A DNA stretch of 34,877 nucleotides from NCBI GenBank assembly GCA_018004935.1, contig JAGNBF010000078.1, positions 1 to 34,877 of the forward strand, given 5' to 3'. Positions 5,358 to 30,612 of this stretch are shown one piece after another; position 1 is the first letter of the stretch; the number at the start of each line of letters is the position of its first letter. Source of the DNA: Chloroflexota bacterium. Its GTDB lineage: Bacteria > Chloroflexota > Anaerolineae > Promineifilales > Promineifilaceae. The notes under the pieces were generated by a model that made no database searches, was not told the origin of the DNA, and was given only the letters and a program-made list of their open reading frames with translations. A program made the translations under genes and the position numbers.

Positions 5358-8075
5358 TTAATTAGCCGTGAGCGGCAGAAAAACCTTCAGAAAATCAACC
5401 AACGTCCCTGTGTCCCCATCCCCGTCAATATATGTTTCCACATTGCCCAACAAGTCAGTAGCCCGCACCTGGAAATAATACATTTCCCCTCGTTGTACGG
5501 ACACAGGAATGGTTGGTCCAAAAACGGCTGATGTGTCTGTGGTTGTCACTAACCAGGTTGTCCAGGTTCCTGTCGCGCCTATCCGATATTGCACATCATA
5601 ATAAGCAATACCAACCTCATTATCATTGCCTGCCCATGTCACGGTGAAAAAAAGATCTGTGGAACTGATCGGTGATGAAGCAGTTGATTCCGGGGGCGTA
5701 TCATCCAGAATGATGGCGTCACTATAAGTGGATGAGATGTTTCCGGCAAAGTCCCGATACTCCGTTTCCACCGTTTTCAGGCCATTCACCGCGCTTAACG
5801 TCCACACTTTGCTCGTCGAATAACTCTCCCAGGTACTCCAATTGCCATCATTATTGCGGAAGCGCATATCGGCCACACCATTGCCAGACCCAGTAGCGGA
5901 TAGGGCTAAATTAACAACCGGAGATGTCGTATAGGCATCATCGCCATTCACAATAATGGTACCTGTGGGTAAAGTATTATCTTGGGTGATACTCAGGTCT
6001 AACAGACCTCCCACCCCTGAATCATATTGCATCGCCTCAATACGGTAGGTTGTCCCGGCGAAGAGGGTCATATTTAGCCATGAGTTGAGGCCAACCCCAC
6101 CGTCATCATCACAGCCCTGGTTGACAAGTGAACCAAACGAACCCGTCCACACTGCCAGGACGGTATCATAACTGCTCCCATCCGTGGTGATATGGTAATT
6201 TCTGGTTACTGTGGGGGTAAAACGATACCAGACACTGCGGGATTGTTTGGGTACACCAATGGAGCCGCAGGGAGAAGCCGGATCATTGCCTTGAGTTGTT
6301 GCGGCTGTTGTATTCAGATTGACAATTGAAAAGGGGGTGGAAACTACAGTAACCGCACCTGTAAAGTCGTCATTTGCTGGCCCTGTACGGTATGAAATTG
6401 TATTTTGGTATAGGGCCATAATTGGACCGGCACTGCTGTTGTTATGACCACGAGCGAGCCAGGCAGACCAATATTGGTTGAAGGTGTTATCATTTTGGTG
6501 ATAGATGGTATCCCAGATGTTGATGACGCCCGCACTCTCCGTATATTGATCATCACCCTCATTGTTGCTATCCCACATATCCCATAAGGCTCCAGCCACG
6601 CGCCCTTCCACATCATCGCCATTATTCCACCCTGAGGTGCCCCAGGTGGGATTTTCGAGGTTCAAAGAGGCCCCATTATCCCAGCGATAATAGGGGTCAT
6701 TGTTTACCGCCATGGGCAGATATTCAGCCCAGCCTTCTACCCAGGCGCATCCCTGACTGCTAGAGAGCTGAATATAATGCGGGTTACAGTTGGGGATTGA
6801 GGGTAGGGTATAGCCGTAAATCGTATACATAATGTTATGACCATACTCATGACCCACCACCGTATCAGAAAGGGGATCTGAGCCAGTCAGATGGATATTA
6901 CCGCCATGTGCATAATACGTACCATCCGTACTATCAATTTTCCACTGCACTGTCGTGGGGCCTGCTGTCTCGACGGGGTTTTGGGTTGAGCCAGTTTCAA
7001 ACCAGATAAAACGCCAGGTGTCATTCAGGTCACGCTGGATCCAATAGGCACGTTCGTAGGTACTGCCATTGCTACTTACCCAGGAGCCAATGTCATGAGT
7101 GCCATCACTGAAAACGGTGACGGGGGTCTGTGTTCCGAAGGTGTTATTCACGCTGTTACTGGTTCCCCAATCAGGATTGACTGTCGCCAGCACATCGCCA
7201 TAAGGATTGTAATTAGTATAAGAGTACAGAAGGGTGCGAACACCGGCCGCCCCTGGATTGGTGACAGGGCCGCAGGAGTAATAGCCGTTGACGGTGGTGT
7301 AACACCAGGCCAGATGACCGCCGTTATCGCCGCGTACCAGCCGCACAATAAATTCTAAAGCGGGGGTATAGTTATCGGCACGGTCATAATATCCCCAACG
7401 ACCCGTAACGGTGAGTTGGCCCAGTTCAGGAGGTTGGATAGCGGCCGCGCTGTCTGTTTCCGCAGGTATAATCCCCAGGGTTACATCCCCTTCAACATCT
7501 ACAGGCGGAGCACCGGCTGTGTTGCTCCCTTCTATGATTTGACCATCGCCCAGAGCGAGCAGTTCACCGGCCTGAATGCGTTCTGTTTCCAAGATAGGGG
7601 CGTAGCCAGCCTGCCCCTCAGTCTGCCCCACCGACAAATACAATCCGGCCATATCACCCCACTGTTCTTCGCTGGTGACGGTCCTAAAGGCCCGACAAAA
7701 CAGGGGCATATTCCCTTTACCGTTAAAAACTATGGAAGCCACCAGCGCCTGGGGCTGGTAGGCCATTAGGTCGCCCTGCCAGGAGAGATCGCCGCTCAAT
7801 AGGTGGGCTTCTGGCGGCAGTTCCAGGGTGATGAGAGTATTGGGGGCGTCCAGGATGCTTATAACATTGCAGGTCAGGGTCGCGGCCGCGCCCAGTTTCG
7901 GGTAGTGATCAATGACCAGCGTTGCCGTAATGGGGGTAGCTGGGGGCACGGAACGCCTGTCTTCTGGCTCCGCCTGAGCGGTATTGACCAGGCTTATACT
8001 GATAATGAAGAGCAAAACCAGGTATAACCAGAACTGTAGCGCTCTGTTTCGCGATGCAGACATGAACAGATACAT
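5358..8075 (-). CDS. Large secreted zinc metalloprotease with C-terminal Ig/Fn3-like domains
   Basis: 905 aa. ATG at 8075 has a strong GGAGG site 6-7 bases upstream. Residues 1-35 form a signal peptide (hydrophobic run ending NTAQA). Residues about 50-155 form a domain shared with the next upstream gene (see the lipoprotein at 8509-9132). HEYGHNIMY at 409-417 is a zinc-binding HEXXH motif, followed by CAWVEGWAEYLP (443-454) whose Glu is a candidate third ligand, as in gluzincin-type peptidases. After the peptidase comes a PPC-like beta domain (about 560-700), then two Ig/fibronectin-type domains ending FQVRATDLLGN. Predicted extracellular; substrate unknown. Octamers at 7441 and 7882. Confidence 0.88.
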   Translation of the reverse strand: MYLFMSASRNRALQFWLYLVLLFIISISLVNTAQAEPEDRRSVPPATPITATLVIDHYPKLGAAATLTCNVISILDAPNTLITLELPPEAHLLSGDLSWQGDLMAYQPQALVASIVFNGKGNMPLFCRAFRTVTSEEQWGDMAGLYLSVGQTEGQAGYAPILETERIQAGELLALGDGQIIEGSNTAGAPPVDVEGDVTLGIIPAETDSAAAIQPPELGQLTVTGRWGYYDRADNYTPALEFIVRLVRGDNGGHLAWCYTTVNGYYSCGPVTNPGAAGVRTLLYSYTNYNPYGDVLATVNPDWGTSNSVNNTFGTQTPVTVFSDGTHDIGSWVSSNGSTYERAYWIQRDLNDTWRFIWFETGSTQNPVETAGPTTVQWKIDSTDGTYYAHGGNIHLTGSDPLSDTVVGHEYGHNIMYTIYGYTLPSIPNCNPHYIQLSSSQGCAWVEGWAEYLPMAVNNDPYYRWDNGASLNLENPTWGTSGWNNGDDVEGRVAGALWDMWDSNNEGDDQYTESAGVINIWDTIYHQNDNTFNQYWSAWLARGHNNSSAGPIMALYQNTISYRTGPANDDFTGAVTVVSTPFSIVNLNTTAATTQGNDPASPCGSIGVPKQSRSVWYRFTPTVTRNYHITTDGSSYDTVLAVWTGSFGSLVNQGCDDDGGVGLNSWLNMTLFAGTTYRIEAMQYDSGVGGLLDLSITQDNTLPTGTIIVNGDDAYTTSPVVNLALSATGSGNGVADMRFRNNDGNWSTWESYSTSKVWTLSAVNGLKTVETEYRDFAGNISSTYSDAIILDDTPPESTASSPISSTDLFFTVTWAGNDNEVGIAYYDVQYRIGATGTWTTWLVTTTDTSAVFGPTIPVSVQRGEMYYFQVRATDLLGNVETYIDGDGDTGTLVDFLKVFLPLTAN

Positions 8076-10008: not shown

Positions 10009-10082
10009 TACCCCCGGACGGACTTGAACCATCAACCTGCGCGTTAGGAGTGCGCTGCTCTGTCCTATTGAGCTACGAGGGC
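10009..10082 (-). tRNA. tRNA-Arg (anticodon CCT)
   Basis: On the minus strand a 74-nt cloverleaf folds. Acceptor GCCCTCG pairs with CGGGGGT (one G-U), with discriminator A and no encoded CCA. The D arm is AGCTC...GAGC. The anticodon arm GCGCA/TGCGC-type stem encloses ACTCCTAAC, giving anticodon CCT, read as Arg (AGG). The T arm GATGG-TTCAAGT-CCGTC has one G-U pair. No integrase or duplicated 3' end is visible beside it. Confidence 0.93.
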
Positions 10083-26443: not shown

Positions 26444-26473
26444 TTGACAGTATTTGTAACCGACTCCTAAAAT
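26444..26473 (+). promoter_or_regulatory. Promoter of the dnaJ-like gene
   Basis: TTGACA (26444-26449), 18-base spacer, TAAAAT (26468-26473), giving a leader of about 55 bases. No CIRCE heat-shock element (TTAGCACTC-N9-GAGTGCTAA) is visible. Confidence 0.65.
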
Positions 26474-26533: not shown

Positions 26534-27472
26534 ATGGTTGCAAAAATGGAATTTAAGGATTACTACAAAATATTAGGCGTTGACAAAACCGCCGACCAAA
26601 AAACCGTAAAACGGGCTTATCGCAAGTTGGCCCAACAATATCACCCGGATAAAAATCCCAATAACAAAGCATCTGAAGAAAAATTTAAGGAAATCAACGA
26701 GGCTTATGAAGTCTTGGGTGATGCCGAAAATCGTACTCGTTATGATCAACTGGGCCAAAATTATCAACAATGGCGTCAGACAGGGGATCAGCCGGGTGGA
26801 TTTGATTTTTCCCAATGGTTTGCGGCGAATCAATCACGCGGTGGATACCAAACGTCAGTAAATCTGGATGATTTGTTTGGTGGGGAGGGGGGCCAGTTTT
26901 CCGACTTTTTCCAGGCAATTTTTGGTGAACGTATGGGACAACAACGGTCAGGCAGACGCGGCCGCGACATGGAACACACTATCGAAATTACGCTAGAAGA
27001 AGCATACCACGGCACAACCCGTACCCTCAGCCAGGAACGAGGCGAGACGTTTACAGCTAAAATCCCGCAGGGAGCTAAAACGGGCACGAAAGTTCGTTTG
27101 CGCGGTAAGGGACAGGCGGGTCAGGGAGCTGAAGCCGGGGATCTTTTCCTGGTAGTGAAGGTTAACCCCCATCCTCGCTTTAAGCGTGAGGGAGACACAC
27201 TTTCCTTAGACCTGGAAGTAGATGTGCCAACCGCCGTATTGGGGGGGAAAGTACCTGTTGCGACCCTGGCTGGTACCGTCAATCTCACCATTCCGCCGGG
27301 TACATCAAGCGGCCGCACCATTCGCCTGGCCGGTCGGGGTATGCCCCATTTGCAGAACCCAGACGAACATGACGATTTGCTGGTGCGGGTCATGATCAAA
27401 GTGCCAACCCCCACCCAACTTACGGAGCCAGAACGCCAGTTGTATGAAGAGCTGGCCCGACTCAGAAGCTGA
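26534..27472 (+). CDS. DnaJ/CbpA-type J-domain co-chaperone
   Basis: 312 aa. J domain at 5-75 with YHPDKNPNN (HPD at 37-39), which stimulates the Hsp70 ATPase. A Gly/Phe-Gln linker follows, then the peptide-binding C-terminal domains ([61 protein letters not shown]). No CxxCxGxG zinc domain, so it is CbpA-like rather than full DnaJ. Start uncertain: ATG 26534 or ATG 26546. No Hsp70 or GrpE gene is in the window. Octamers at 26958 and 27309. Confidence 0.93.
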
Positions 27473-27599: not shown

Positions 27600-28766
27600 A
27601 TGAAGCGAAAGACATCATATTTGTTATTGTTGGGCGTGTTATTATGGTTGAGTGGGTTGGCTTGTACCCTTTCTCCCGCCTCAGGTGGCAGTGAAACAAA
27701 TGAAGAGGCAGTGATCGCGGCCGCGGTGGCTACCCTTCAGGCGCAACCCGCCCCCGTAAATGTAACCGCCCCTGACACCCCCATAGTTGCCGGTGCTCCT
27801 GGCGTTAGCGTAGACCTGCAAAACCAGCTTGTCACTCTATACAACTCCGTTAACCCGTCCGTTGTTCACATTATCGGCTTGTTGGGCACGGGCACCGGGT
27901 TTGTTTACGACAGCCAGGGATATGTCGTTACCAATAACCATGTGGTAGATGGTAACGAGAACCTGGAAGTCGTTTTCGCTGATGGCTTCCGTTCCTATGC
28001 GGAAATTGCCGGAACGGATGTTGATAGTGATCTGGCCGTTATTCGGGTTAATGATGTCCCTGAGAATCTGCAACCCGTCACCTTAGGCGATTCTAATGCG
28101 GTGCAGGTGGGCGAATTTGTCATTGCCATTGGTAATCCTTTTGGTCAAGAAAGTTCTATGTCATTGGGAATCATCAGCGGGGTAGGGCGTACCCTGCAAT
28201 CGCAACGTGCGGCCGATGGGGGTGGCTCTTACTCCTTACCCCAGGTAATCCAGACCGATGCCCCCATTAATCCCGGTAATTCTGGTGGCCCCCTGGTTAA
28301 TTTGAGTGGGCAGGTGATTGGTGTTAATAGTGCCATTCGCACTGATACCGGTTTTAACTCTGGGGTAGGCTTCTCCATTCCCGTAAATGCCGTCAAACGG
28401 ATTGTGCCGTCACTGATCCAGGCGGGTCAGTATGTCTACCCTTATATGGGTATTGGCGTTAGTTTGCCGACACTGAACCTGGACGCCCAAGAGCAATTGG
28501 GTTTACCTCAACCTTATGGTGTTTATGTGACCAGCGTTGTTGAGGAAGGTCCAGCCGCTCAGGCTGGCCTTCAGGCGGGCGAGGTCGAAAATAATTTTAC
28601 CGGTGGTGATCTGATTCTGGCTGTAGATGGCCGGGAGGTGCAAAACTTTGATGAATTGATCTCTTACCTGGTGTTTGAAACGGAAGTTGGTCAGACGATT
28701 GAGTTGTACGTCTGGCGCAATGGGGAATATCTTACCTTGCCTCTGACATTAGGGGCCAGACCCTAA
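27600..28766 (+). CDS. HtrA/DegP-like serine protease, lipoprotein
   Basis: 388 aa. Lipoprotein signal ending LSGLAC (Cys22), then a trypsin-like domain with His114 in TNNHVV, Asp144 in DSDLAV and Ser228 in NPGNSGGPL, and a single PDZ domain (about 290-385, ending LYVWRNGEYLTLPLTLG). Family members degrade damaged proteins outside the cytoplasmic membrane. ATG 27600 follows AAGGA. Its place after a J-domain chaperone gene fits a protein-quality cluster. Octamer at 27717. Confidence 0.93.
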   Translation: MKRKTSYLLLLGVLLWLSGLACTLSPASGGSETNEEAVIAAAVATLQAQPAPVNVTAPDTPIVAGAPGVSVDLQNQLVTLYNSVNPSVVHIIGLLGTGTGFVYDSQGYVVTNNHVVDGNENLEVVFADGFRSYAEIAGTDVDSDLAVIRVNDVPENLQPVTLGDSNAVQVGEFVIAIGNPFGQESSMSLGIISGVGRTLQSQRAADGGGSYSLPQVIQTDAPINPGNSGGPLVNLSGQVIGVNSAIRTDTGFNSGVGFSIPVNAVKRIVPSLIQAGQYVYPYMGIGVSLPTLNLDAQEQLGLPQPYGVYVTSVVEEGPAAQAGLQAGEVENNFTGGDLILAVDGREVQNFDELISYLVFETEVGQTIELYVWRNGEYLTLPLTLGARP

Positions 28767-28968: not shown

Positions 28969-29084
28969 GGTCAGGATACCGGCTTGAGCGATTCCGTAAG
29001 CCCCAGGTAAGAACCCGCGGCCGCTTCCTTTTCAGGCGCTATTGCCGTTAATGTTCATTGTCTTTGGCCACGAAGGAGGTCTTC

Positions 29085-30188
29085 ATGTTTGCCGAACAGC
29101 AATTACAAGAATTGGTGGATTTCTCAGCCAATGGGGATCATGTCCTCACTGTTTATGTGGATACGGACCTGCGTCACAACACACTGGAAACCATTAAGCG
29201 ACAGATAAAAAGTCTGTTGCGTGATGTGCGCAATGATCTACCGCAAGATGTGGAGCAGATAGAAACCTTTTTTGACCTGAATTATGGCTGGAAACAGCCG
29301 GGGGTGGCACTCTTTTGTTGCGCGACAAGGGGATTTTTCCGCTCGTATCCGGTGGCTGTCGCTTTCCGCAGTCGGGTGCGTGTGGGCACGAAGCCGTATG
29401 TAAAACCGCTGGCTCACTTCCTGGAGCATTATGCTCATTATGGCGTGATTTTGGTGGATAGGGTGGGAGCGCGGTTTTTTGATTTTCACCTGGGTGAATT
29501 GCAGGGTATTGGAGGGCATGAGGGGGATGATGTGCGCGGGGTGAAACGCGGCCGCGGTTCATCGGCCACCGGTATGCGTGGGGGGCAAGGTGGGGGCCGC
29601 CAGGAAGAGGAAACTATCTTACGGAATTTGCGTGAAGCGGCCGCGGCCGCGGACTCCTTCTTCCGCCAAACCAAAGCCCGACGCCTTTTCTTAGGGGGCA
29701 CCCAGGAAAATGTGGCGCAATTCCGCGAATACCTTTCCAAACAGTTACAAAGTTTCGTAGCCGGGACCTTCGTCATTGAGGTAGACGCTGGCGAAGCGGA
29801 AGTAGGGGATCGTGCTCTTGAACTCCTGCGTGAAGCCAACGTCGAACGAGAGCAACAACTGGTACAAACTATGATCACAACGGCGGCTAAAATGGGCAAC
29901 GCCGTTGTCGGCTTAGAAGATACCCTCCATGCTGTATCTGATGGCCGGGTGCAATATCTGGTCGTGGGTGATGGGTATCGTCAGTCCGGTTACAAACATG
30001 ATGGCACCCAATTCGTTACTTCTAACCTGGCAACCAGCCCTTACGCTGAGAATGAACTACAGACGGTAGATGATGTGGTAGATGCCGCTGTTATTTACAC
30101 CATGGCTACAGGCGGCCGCGTTGAAGTCATCAGTGATAATCCGGCTTTGGATAAGGTTGGGCGTATTGGTGCAATTTTGCGTTACTAA
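29085..30188 (+). CDS. Bacterial eRF1/Pelota-like protein (baeRF) with GGQ motif
   Basis: 367 aa from ATG 29085, which has a perfect AAGGAGG site; a longer frame from 29058 does not. Three regions: an N-terminal domain (1-140); a middle segment RGRGSSATGMRGGQGGGRQEEE (155-176) leading into an EIL-type helix and TKARRLFLGGTQENV; and a C-terminal L7Ae-like domain (GNAVVGLEDTLHAVSDGRVQYLVVGDGY, 271-298). This is the layout of archaeo-eukaryotic release factors; GGQ (166-168) is their peptidyl-tRNA hydrolysis motif. A role in ribosome rescue or release is plausible; no NIKS/codon-recognition motif was recognised. Four octamers. Confidence 0.82.
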   Translation: MFAEQQLQELVDFSANGDHVLTVYVDTDLRHNTLETIKRQIKSLLRDVRNDLPQDVEQIETFFDLNYGWKQPGVALFCCATRGFFRSYPVAVAFRSRVRVGTKPYVKPLAHFLEHYAHYGVILVDRVGARFFDFHLGELQGIGGHEGDDVRGVKRGRGSSATGMRGGQGGGRQEEETILRNLREAAAAADSFFRQTKARRLFLGGTQENVAQFREYLSKQLQSFVAGTFVIEVDAGEAEVGDRALELLREANVEREQQLVQTMITTAAKMGNAVVGLEDTLHAVSDGRVQYLVVGDGYRQSGYKHDGTQFVTSNLATSPYAENELQTVDDVVDAAVIYTMATGGRVEVISDNPALDKVGRIGAILRY

Positions 30189-30343: not shown

Positions 30344-30424
30344 TACTTCCGAACGATTACTAAGGCCGTTTTTCGTGGGCGCACCCCCATGAAAAACGGC
30401 TTAAATTGTTTCTGTGGGAATTTT

Positions 30425-30612
30425 TAGAGGGTTACGTTCCTTTGGGGGCGTAGGCCAGTACCCTGGTAGCCTGAACTTGTTTACGGATCTACCTGCTACA
30501 CCCGGGAGACAAGTAAATGGGAGATATTCGGAAAACTGGGGCGGTTAGGCGAAAAAGACCATTGTGCGTTAAAGTAGAGAGTCAGTACCCGGAGGGTGCT
30601 GGCTCTTTTTTA
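30425..30612 (+). ncRNA. Candidate structured non-coding RNA ending in a terminator
   Basis: Within a 780-base gap lie successive potential stems: TACGTTCC/GGGGGCGTA (about 30436-30456) and GG-CCAG-CTGG-CC (about 30461-30479). A GAGTCAGTACCC/GGGTGCTGGCTC stem (30579-30605) follows, directly before TTTTTT (30606-30611), a strong Rho-independent terminator with no ORF upstream. I could not match it to 6S, SRP, tmRNA, RNase P or a riboswitch consensus. The 5' end is unknown. Confidence 0.4.
30578..30612 (+). terminator. Intrinsic terminator without an upstream gene
   Basis: Twelve-bp stem with two G-U pairs, 3-base GGA loop, and TTTTTT tail. The nearest gene end is about 390 bases upstream, which is why a non-coding transcript is suspected. 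Confidence 0.75.

Follow-up and report, generated by a model that had tools for sequence, protein, structure and literature searches.

A Balon-like aeRF1-type protein of a Chloroflexota bacterium carries a GGQ triplet whose glutamine is not conserved

The window analysed here, a 34,877-nucleotide stretch of a Chloroflexota bacterium (GCA_018004935.1, contig JAGNBF010000078.1), encodes a Balon-like aeRF1-type protein that would probably enter the vacant or stalled A site of ribosomes under stress and block it without hydrolysing peptidyl-tRNA. Within the Balon-like baeRF group the protein is an ordinary member, though an informative one. Judged from sequence comparisons, its GGQ triplet is most likely incidental, because close relatives hold both glycines and vary the glutamine freely. 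The features on which we draw are collected in Table 1.

Table 1. Features of the window around the baeRF gene (positions in the window).
Feature	Position	Strand	Basis
baeRF / Balon-like aeRF1-type protein, 367 aa	29085..30188	+	translation; PF18854 101.3 bits; best fold match Balon Msmeg1130
Shine-Dalgarno AAGGAGG (perfect), 5 bases 5' of the ATG at 29085	29073..29079	+	sequence
N domain, residues 1-115, Balon-like	29085..29429	+	N-domain profile
Gly-rich loop K154-E176 (KRGRGSSATGMRGGQGGGRQEEE), occupying the position of the eRF1 GGQ / Balon lasso region	29544..29612	+	pLDDT, conservation
GGQ triplet, residues 166-168; both glycines invariant, Q varying	29580..29588	+	alignments
Helix 169-194 after the loop	29589..29666	+	model secondary structure; invariant columns
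C domain, residues about 236-367, Pelota/eRF1_3-like, with Cys-free insert 302-328	29790..30185	+	Pfam, model, alignment
HtrA/Deg-type trypsin-PDZ protease, conserved upstream neighbour	27600..28766	+	families; neighbourhood
DnaJ/CbpA-type co-chaperone (J domain + DnaJ_C)	26534..27472	+	families
Promoter-like TTGACA-18-TAAAAT 5' of dnaJ, 11/12 matches	26444..26473	+	sequence scan
Terminator-like hairpin (17 pairs) 3' of the baeRF gene; second at 30576-30608	30363..30402	+	sequence scan

Translation of the window confirmed a real open reading frame, present as a single copy in the source genome; the longest opposite-strand reading frame overlapping it is 137 aa. In Pfam, the middle domain (residues 104-246) matched baeRF_family10 (PF18854) at 101.3 bits against a cut-off of 27.1, in agreement with a preliminary description that had called the protein a bacterial eRF1 relative. 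Weaker matches were found to baeRF families 2 and 3, and eRF1_3 matched residues 255-367 slightly below its cut-off. The acVLRF1 family (PF18859) was absent from the Pfam matches of the protein, and had no match in the source genome at an E-value of 0.001 or better. A single-sequence search of the PDB returned the Msmeg1130 Balon with an E-value of 4e-8, and two profile searches of PDB sequences gave E-values of 2.7e-22 and 6.4e-28 for Balon and of 1e-11 and 2e-13 for eRF1/aRF1, the second of each pair with the A3 profile. The scores against the three NCBIfam Balon-type hibernation families tested (MSMEG_1130, Rv2629 and AOC03_06830) were 75.5, 67.5 and 66.1 bits against cut-offs of 480, 320 and 330, and by these scores we would describe the protein as Balon-like, short of filing it as a Balon equivalog.

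The AlphaFold model of the protein was built with 57 sequences and reached a pLDDT of 90.6 and a pTM of 0.80, with a single segment, residues 153-167, below a pLDDT of 50. In a structure comparison with this model, the closest solved structure was Msmeg1130 Balon (PDB ID: 8v9l), with a Z-score of 31.4 across 352 residues and an r.m.s.d. of 3.2; a second Balon structure (PDB ID: 8rd8) gave a Z-score of 25.4, and the Balon matches overall spanned Z-scores of 24 to 31. eRF1 and aRF1 matched with a Z-score of about 17 and an r.m.s.d. above 8, while the best Pelota match reached 12.6 (PDB ID: 3oby), so that Pelota is not the nearest aeRF1-type branch. Together, the predicted model and fold matches give the protein a three-domain aeRF1-like architecture. 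A profile made from 25 N domains recovered, among PDB sequences, only Balon Msmeg1130 at an E-value below 0.1 (9e-5), and eRF1 was not found by this profile. The N domain lacks the NIKS stop-codon motif; a QIKS at residues 40-43 is not conserved among relatives. As Balon was best in the profiles, the N domain and the predicted fold, we assign the protein, which has no NIKS, as Balon-like and aeRF1-type. The profile comparison proposed in the preliminary description, with eRF1, Pelota, VLRF1 and the baeRF families, therefore yields a fit to family 10 and Balon, whereas acVLRF1 gave no match and eRF1 and Pelota were weaker than Balon in the fold comparison.

The GGQ lies in a loop between a strand (residues 138-146) and the helix of residues 169-194 of the model, which we take to be the topological place of the GGQ in eRF1. 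The helix carries an R180-N181-x-R183 motif that is invariant in a 15-row alignment. The sequence GMRGGQGGGR is indeed present in the translation at residues 163-172, and the helical region and L7Ae-like third domain that had been predicted to follow it are supported by this helix, by eRF1_3 just under its cut-off, and by the eRF1, Pelota and Balon matches. The C domains of seven distant relatives (L033, L035, L037, L043, L046, L051 and L060) contain a CxxC...CxxC zinc-ribbon-like pattern, and the close clade of the window protein has lost these cysteines (residues 302-328, positions 29988-30068).

We aligned 59 relatives from a genome search with the window protein. In the close set (n = 30, window included; relatives at 52-59% identity), K154, G156, G158, S159, G163, R165, G166 and G167 are each present in 30/30, and residue 168 is glutamine in 8/30. 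Scanning a named genome collection yielded 79 loci, most of them from Anaerolineae MAGs, the nearest being of Promineifilum/Ardenticatenaceae type; with the window these make 80 rows, 51 with the GxRGGx loop and 29 without it. In the 51 loop-bearing rows, which share genomes with the close set and are not independent of it, G163, G166 and G167 are invariant (51/51), and the last residue of GxRGGx is Q in 9, I in 8, G in 7, M in 7, T in 6, A in 5, V in 4, L in 2, and N, S and D in 1 each. Glutamine is thus the commonest single residue at position 168, at 9/51, and the entropy of this column is greater than that of 360 of the 366 other columns, or of 362 of 366 in a 38-row inner clade. In a tree from which the loop columns were left out, the distinction between Q and not-Q took six changes, three of them forced by starred branches; as few as six changes were seen in 5 to 7 of 500 shuffles, so that Q is clustered on the tree. 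The row nearest to the window in the tree (L072) carries N at this position, and close relatives at 53-59% identity without Q retain the same gene cassette.

Despite the GGQ letters in the window copy, the loop-bearing rows therefore lack the conserved catalytic-loop GGQ (or GxuQ) glutamine that is a trait of aeRF1 hydrolases. The strong conservation of the rest of the loop (G156, S159, G163, R165, G166 and G167) suggests that the loop matters and the glutamine does not. The preliminary description had placed the GGQ where eRF1 domain 2 has its own, which holds for the strand-loop-helix topology and is not confirmed for a retained catalytic residue, and its further step, that a clear GGQ suggests peptidyl-tRNA hydrolysis, is unsupported. 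It had also named a disordered and unconserved GGQ as the observation that would speak against it; this is essentially what we found, with the qualification that Q168 sits at the foot of the helix, one residue past the stretch with pLDDT below 50. We did not rely on disorder alone as an argument against the GGQ; the GGQ loop of active factors may also be flexible. Across loci L061-L121, residue 168 (positions 29586-29588 in the window) is near-maximally variable directly after an invariant GxRGG, a pattern that either relaxed or diversifying change may explain.

The register of the loop was considered separately. Both profile alignments pair the eRF1 GGQ with residues 156-158, not 166-168, and the core alignment pairs the SQ of family 10 with G166-G167. 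Counted on the alignments, the distance from Q168 to N181 is 13 in the window protein, against 15 or 16 in eRF1 and 14 in the family-10 core. With the helix as anchor, Q168 falls one residue away from the glutamine of the family-10 core in five of the nine Q rows, the window included, two off in L082, and in register in three (distances of 13, 12 and 14 against 14). None of the alignments made puts Q168 of the window protein on the catalytic glutamine, and the register of these sequences should be read as uncertain by at least one residue.

For comparison, Chloroflexota family-10 core rows have the loop GGWSQxxxQRH or near it, with Q in 19/28; these 28 rows are what remains of 46 after removal of five RGG-type rows, the seven rows of an AMGNRD-type group, the window and five VLRF1 rows. 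The RGG-type rows have a loop longer by about seven residues than the family-10 core. A well-conserved glutamine, which is a trait reported for family 10 in PMC6514570 and not the Pfam definition of PF18854, is thus seen in the core (19/28) and not in the loop-bearing rows (9/51). As a positive control for glutamine conservation acVLRF1 was weak, with Q in two (L140 and L143) of its five best Chloroflexota matches. The other three, L141, L142 and L144, score above the acVLRF1 cut-off without the expected loop glutamine (GGSSSG, GGSSER and GGRSAK). A further Chloroflexota baeRF group (L047, L049, L053, L054, L056, L057 and L059) has a conserved AMGNRDRFARR loop, also without glutamine.

Among known systems, the protein shares with Balon (Msmeg1130, Rv2629 and P. 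urativorans) the three-domain aeRF1-type fold without NIKS, and DnaJ in a stress-gene context. In the main text of PMC10901736, Balon homologues are described as lacking GGQ, and Balon genes as residing in stress operons, some of them with DnaJ. The window protein differs from Balon in having only about 18% identity, in scoring below the equivalog cut-offs, in its Gly-rich GxRGGx loop where the Msmeg1130 sequence differs, and in adjoining HtrA and not RaiA. The GGQ letters are present in the window copy, with an unconserved Q. It resembles baeRF family 10 (PF18854; Burroughs and Aravind 2019) in its middle domain, although the GGWSQ...QRH glutamine is replaced by the longer loop. With aeRF1/eRF1 it shares the overall domain order and an RGG directly before the domain-2 helix, and differs in the unconserved glutamine, the longer loop and the N domain without NIKS. 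Pelota/Dom34 has the common fold and likewise no conserved catalytic glutamine, but its structural match is much weaker. Finally, acVLRF1 belongs to the same superfamily and occurs in Chloroflexota, whereas the window protein fits the family-10 and Balon models instead.

Of the 61 Anaerolineae-type loci (L061-L121), 51 have HtrA as the immediate upstream neighbour in the same orientation; five of the ten others have 245 or fewer bases upstream. DnaJ is upstream in 21 of the 79 loci. The HtrA pairing is present with Q, without Q, and in six of the seven short-loop loci that lack the GxRGG insert, the exception being L106, with no HtrA despite 785 bases upstream. Since the pairing is kept regardless of Q, it argues for a shared role independent of the glutamine, with the caveat that the loci share common descent and cannot count as independent trials. 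Over the 79 loci the HtrA cluster comprises 54 members, of which the other three are verrucomicrobial (L123, L124 and L125), where HtrA adjoins the baeRF gene on the opposite strand, so that the pairing crosses phyla. Some Anaerolineae have a MerR-type regulator gene immediately upstream of baeRF, namely L112 (positions 7417-8001; Pfam on L112 as representative) and six further loci whose upstream genes fall in one cluster with it.

In the window itself, DnaJ and HtrA both lie upstream, a gene order that matches the stress-operon context of Balon, with co-transcription being a prediction. The gap between htrA and the baeRF gene is 318 bases. The promoter-like site and hairpins would fit one transcription unit, although the region is not enriched in such sites over shuffles (four promoter-like sites in the region against a shuffle mean of 4.5, and seven terminator-like hairpins in total against 5.4). 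As read from its sequence, the HtrA starts with a lipoprotein-like signal, and it probably acts outside the cytoplasm, which favours a stress cassette of a general kind over ribosome-associated quality control. The earlier suggestion that DnaJ and HtrA fit quality control is thus right as to genuine conserved neighbours and would need recasting in these broader terms. At the Rfam gathering thresholds, the one match in the window is a tRNA gene (10009-10082, minus strand), and no other RNA elements were found there. Also encoded in the source genome are RaiA/HPF, tmRNA and three RF-1-domain proteins, of which two have RF1/RF2 length and the third is short; RaiA is on another contig and was not seen beside the baeRF gene. 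The main texts of PMC6514570 and PMC10901736 do not mention HtrA and name no linkage of it with Balon or baeRF. In our literature searches we recognised no published link between HtrA, DnaJ and a hibernation factor in Chloroflexi, and no studies of baeRF family 10 beyond these two; neither the HtrA linkage nor the RGG loop particular to this clade, with its one hypervariable residue, was found, and in these details the system is new.

How such a protein might work can be outlined by analogy with Balon. The decoding centre would be occupied by the N domain, with the middle domain extending to the peptidyl-transferase centre and the C domain turned towards the factor-binding side. The loop KGxGSSxxGxRGGx, with its conserved Gly, Ser and Arg residues, may be the counterpart of the lasso loop of Balon, gripping rRNA near the peptidyl-transferase centre. 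Balon itself is marked by an HP motif, a lasso loop on A2602, a bL27 trap and an EF-Tu beta-hairpin. Under stress, the protein would bind the ribosome and occupy the A site as Balon does, leaving peptidyl-tRNA intact, and ribosomes would be protected or silenced.

The main rival to this blocking model is a non-catalytic rescue like that of Pelota/Dom34, in which entry into the A site of stalled ribosomes would promote splitting and not preservation. The superfamily and fold are shared with Pelota, Burroughs and Aravind suggested that baeRF families relieve stalls without catalysis (main text of PMC6514570), and the DnaJ/HtrA context is compatible with it too. We nevertheless consider it rather unlikely, as Balon fits the model much better than Pelota (Z-scores of 31.4 and 12.6), and the genome has tmRNA and the short RF-1-domain protein that could serve rescue. 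Less probable still is a role away from the 70S ribosome, with the fold reused in another stress function linked to the HtrA/DnaJ cassette. Among full-length relatives with this three-domain fold, the solved ones are translation factors or ligands of the ribosome, and rRNA binding would suit the Arg and Lys residues conserved in loop and helix; these outweigh the protein-quality partners, one of them probably extracytoplasmic, and the loop without the family-10 glutamine, leaving this reading barely credible.

An active peptidyl-tRNA hydrolase, which would use the GGQ to free nascent chains from stalled ribosomes in at least the Q-bearing lineages, was rejected as the main reading on the conservation of Q168 (8/30, 9/51 and the column entropy). 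The observations that speak for it also speak against the blocking model: RGGQ stands immediately before the helix at near-eRF1 spacing, and Q is the commonest residue and clustered on the tree. In addition, family 10 was singled out by Burroughs and Aravind as keeping a well-conserved glutamine and as a group that might hydrolyse (main text of PMC6514570), in keeping with the Chloroflexota core rows. Against this, ten other residues, from I, G and M to S and D, replace Q in most loop-bearing rows, relatives at 53-59% identity without Q keep the cassette, and Q168 is one residue off the family-10 glutamine when anchored on the helix, with the eRF1 GGQ aligning at 156-158. Hydrolysis by a Q-bearing subset is therefore unlikely, and we give the hydrolase reading little credence. 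What tells against the Balon-like reading itself is that the scores lie far below the Balon equivalog cut-offs, and that RaiA is on another contig. A speculative extension, which we regard as a long shot, is an Anaerolineae-specific Balon-like branch in which the family-10 glutamine was swapped for GSSxxGxRGGx and a hypervariable tip tunes how the P-site tRNA or the nascent chain is contacted, such that Q copies release and others block. If this were true, hibernation and rescue would interconvert through one residue in a DnaJ-HtrA-baeRF stress cassette.

The blocking, Balon-like reading remains the one that we favour. It closes a misleading reading of the motif, since a GGQ in a single bacterial sequence is insufficient to define a release factor. 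It would add to the Balon-like stress factors a Chloroflexota branch marked by its own conserved loop and by HtrA as a conserved neighbour, and it may offer a concrete system for the role of a loop facing the peptidyl-transferase centre once catalysis is lost.
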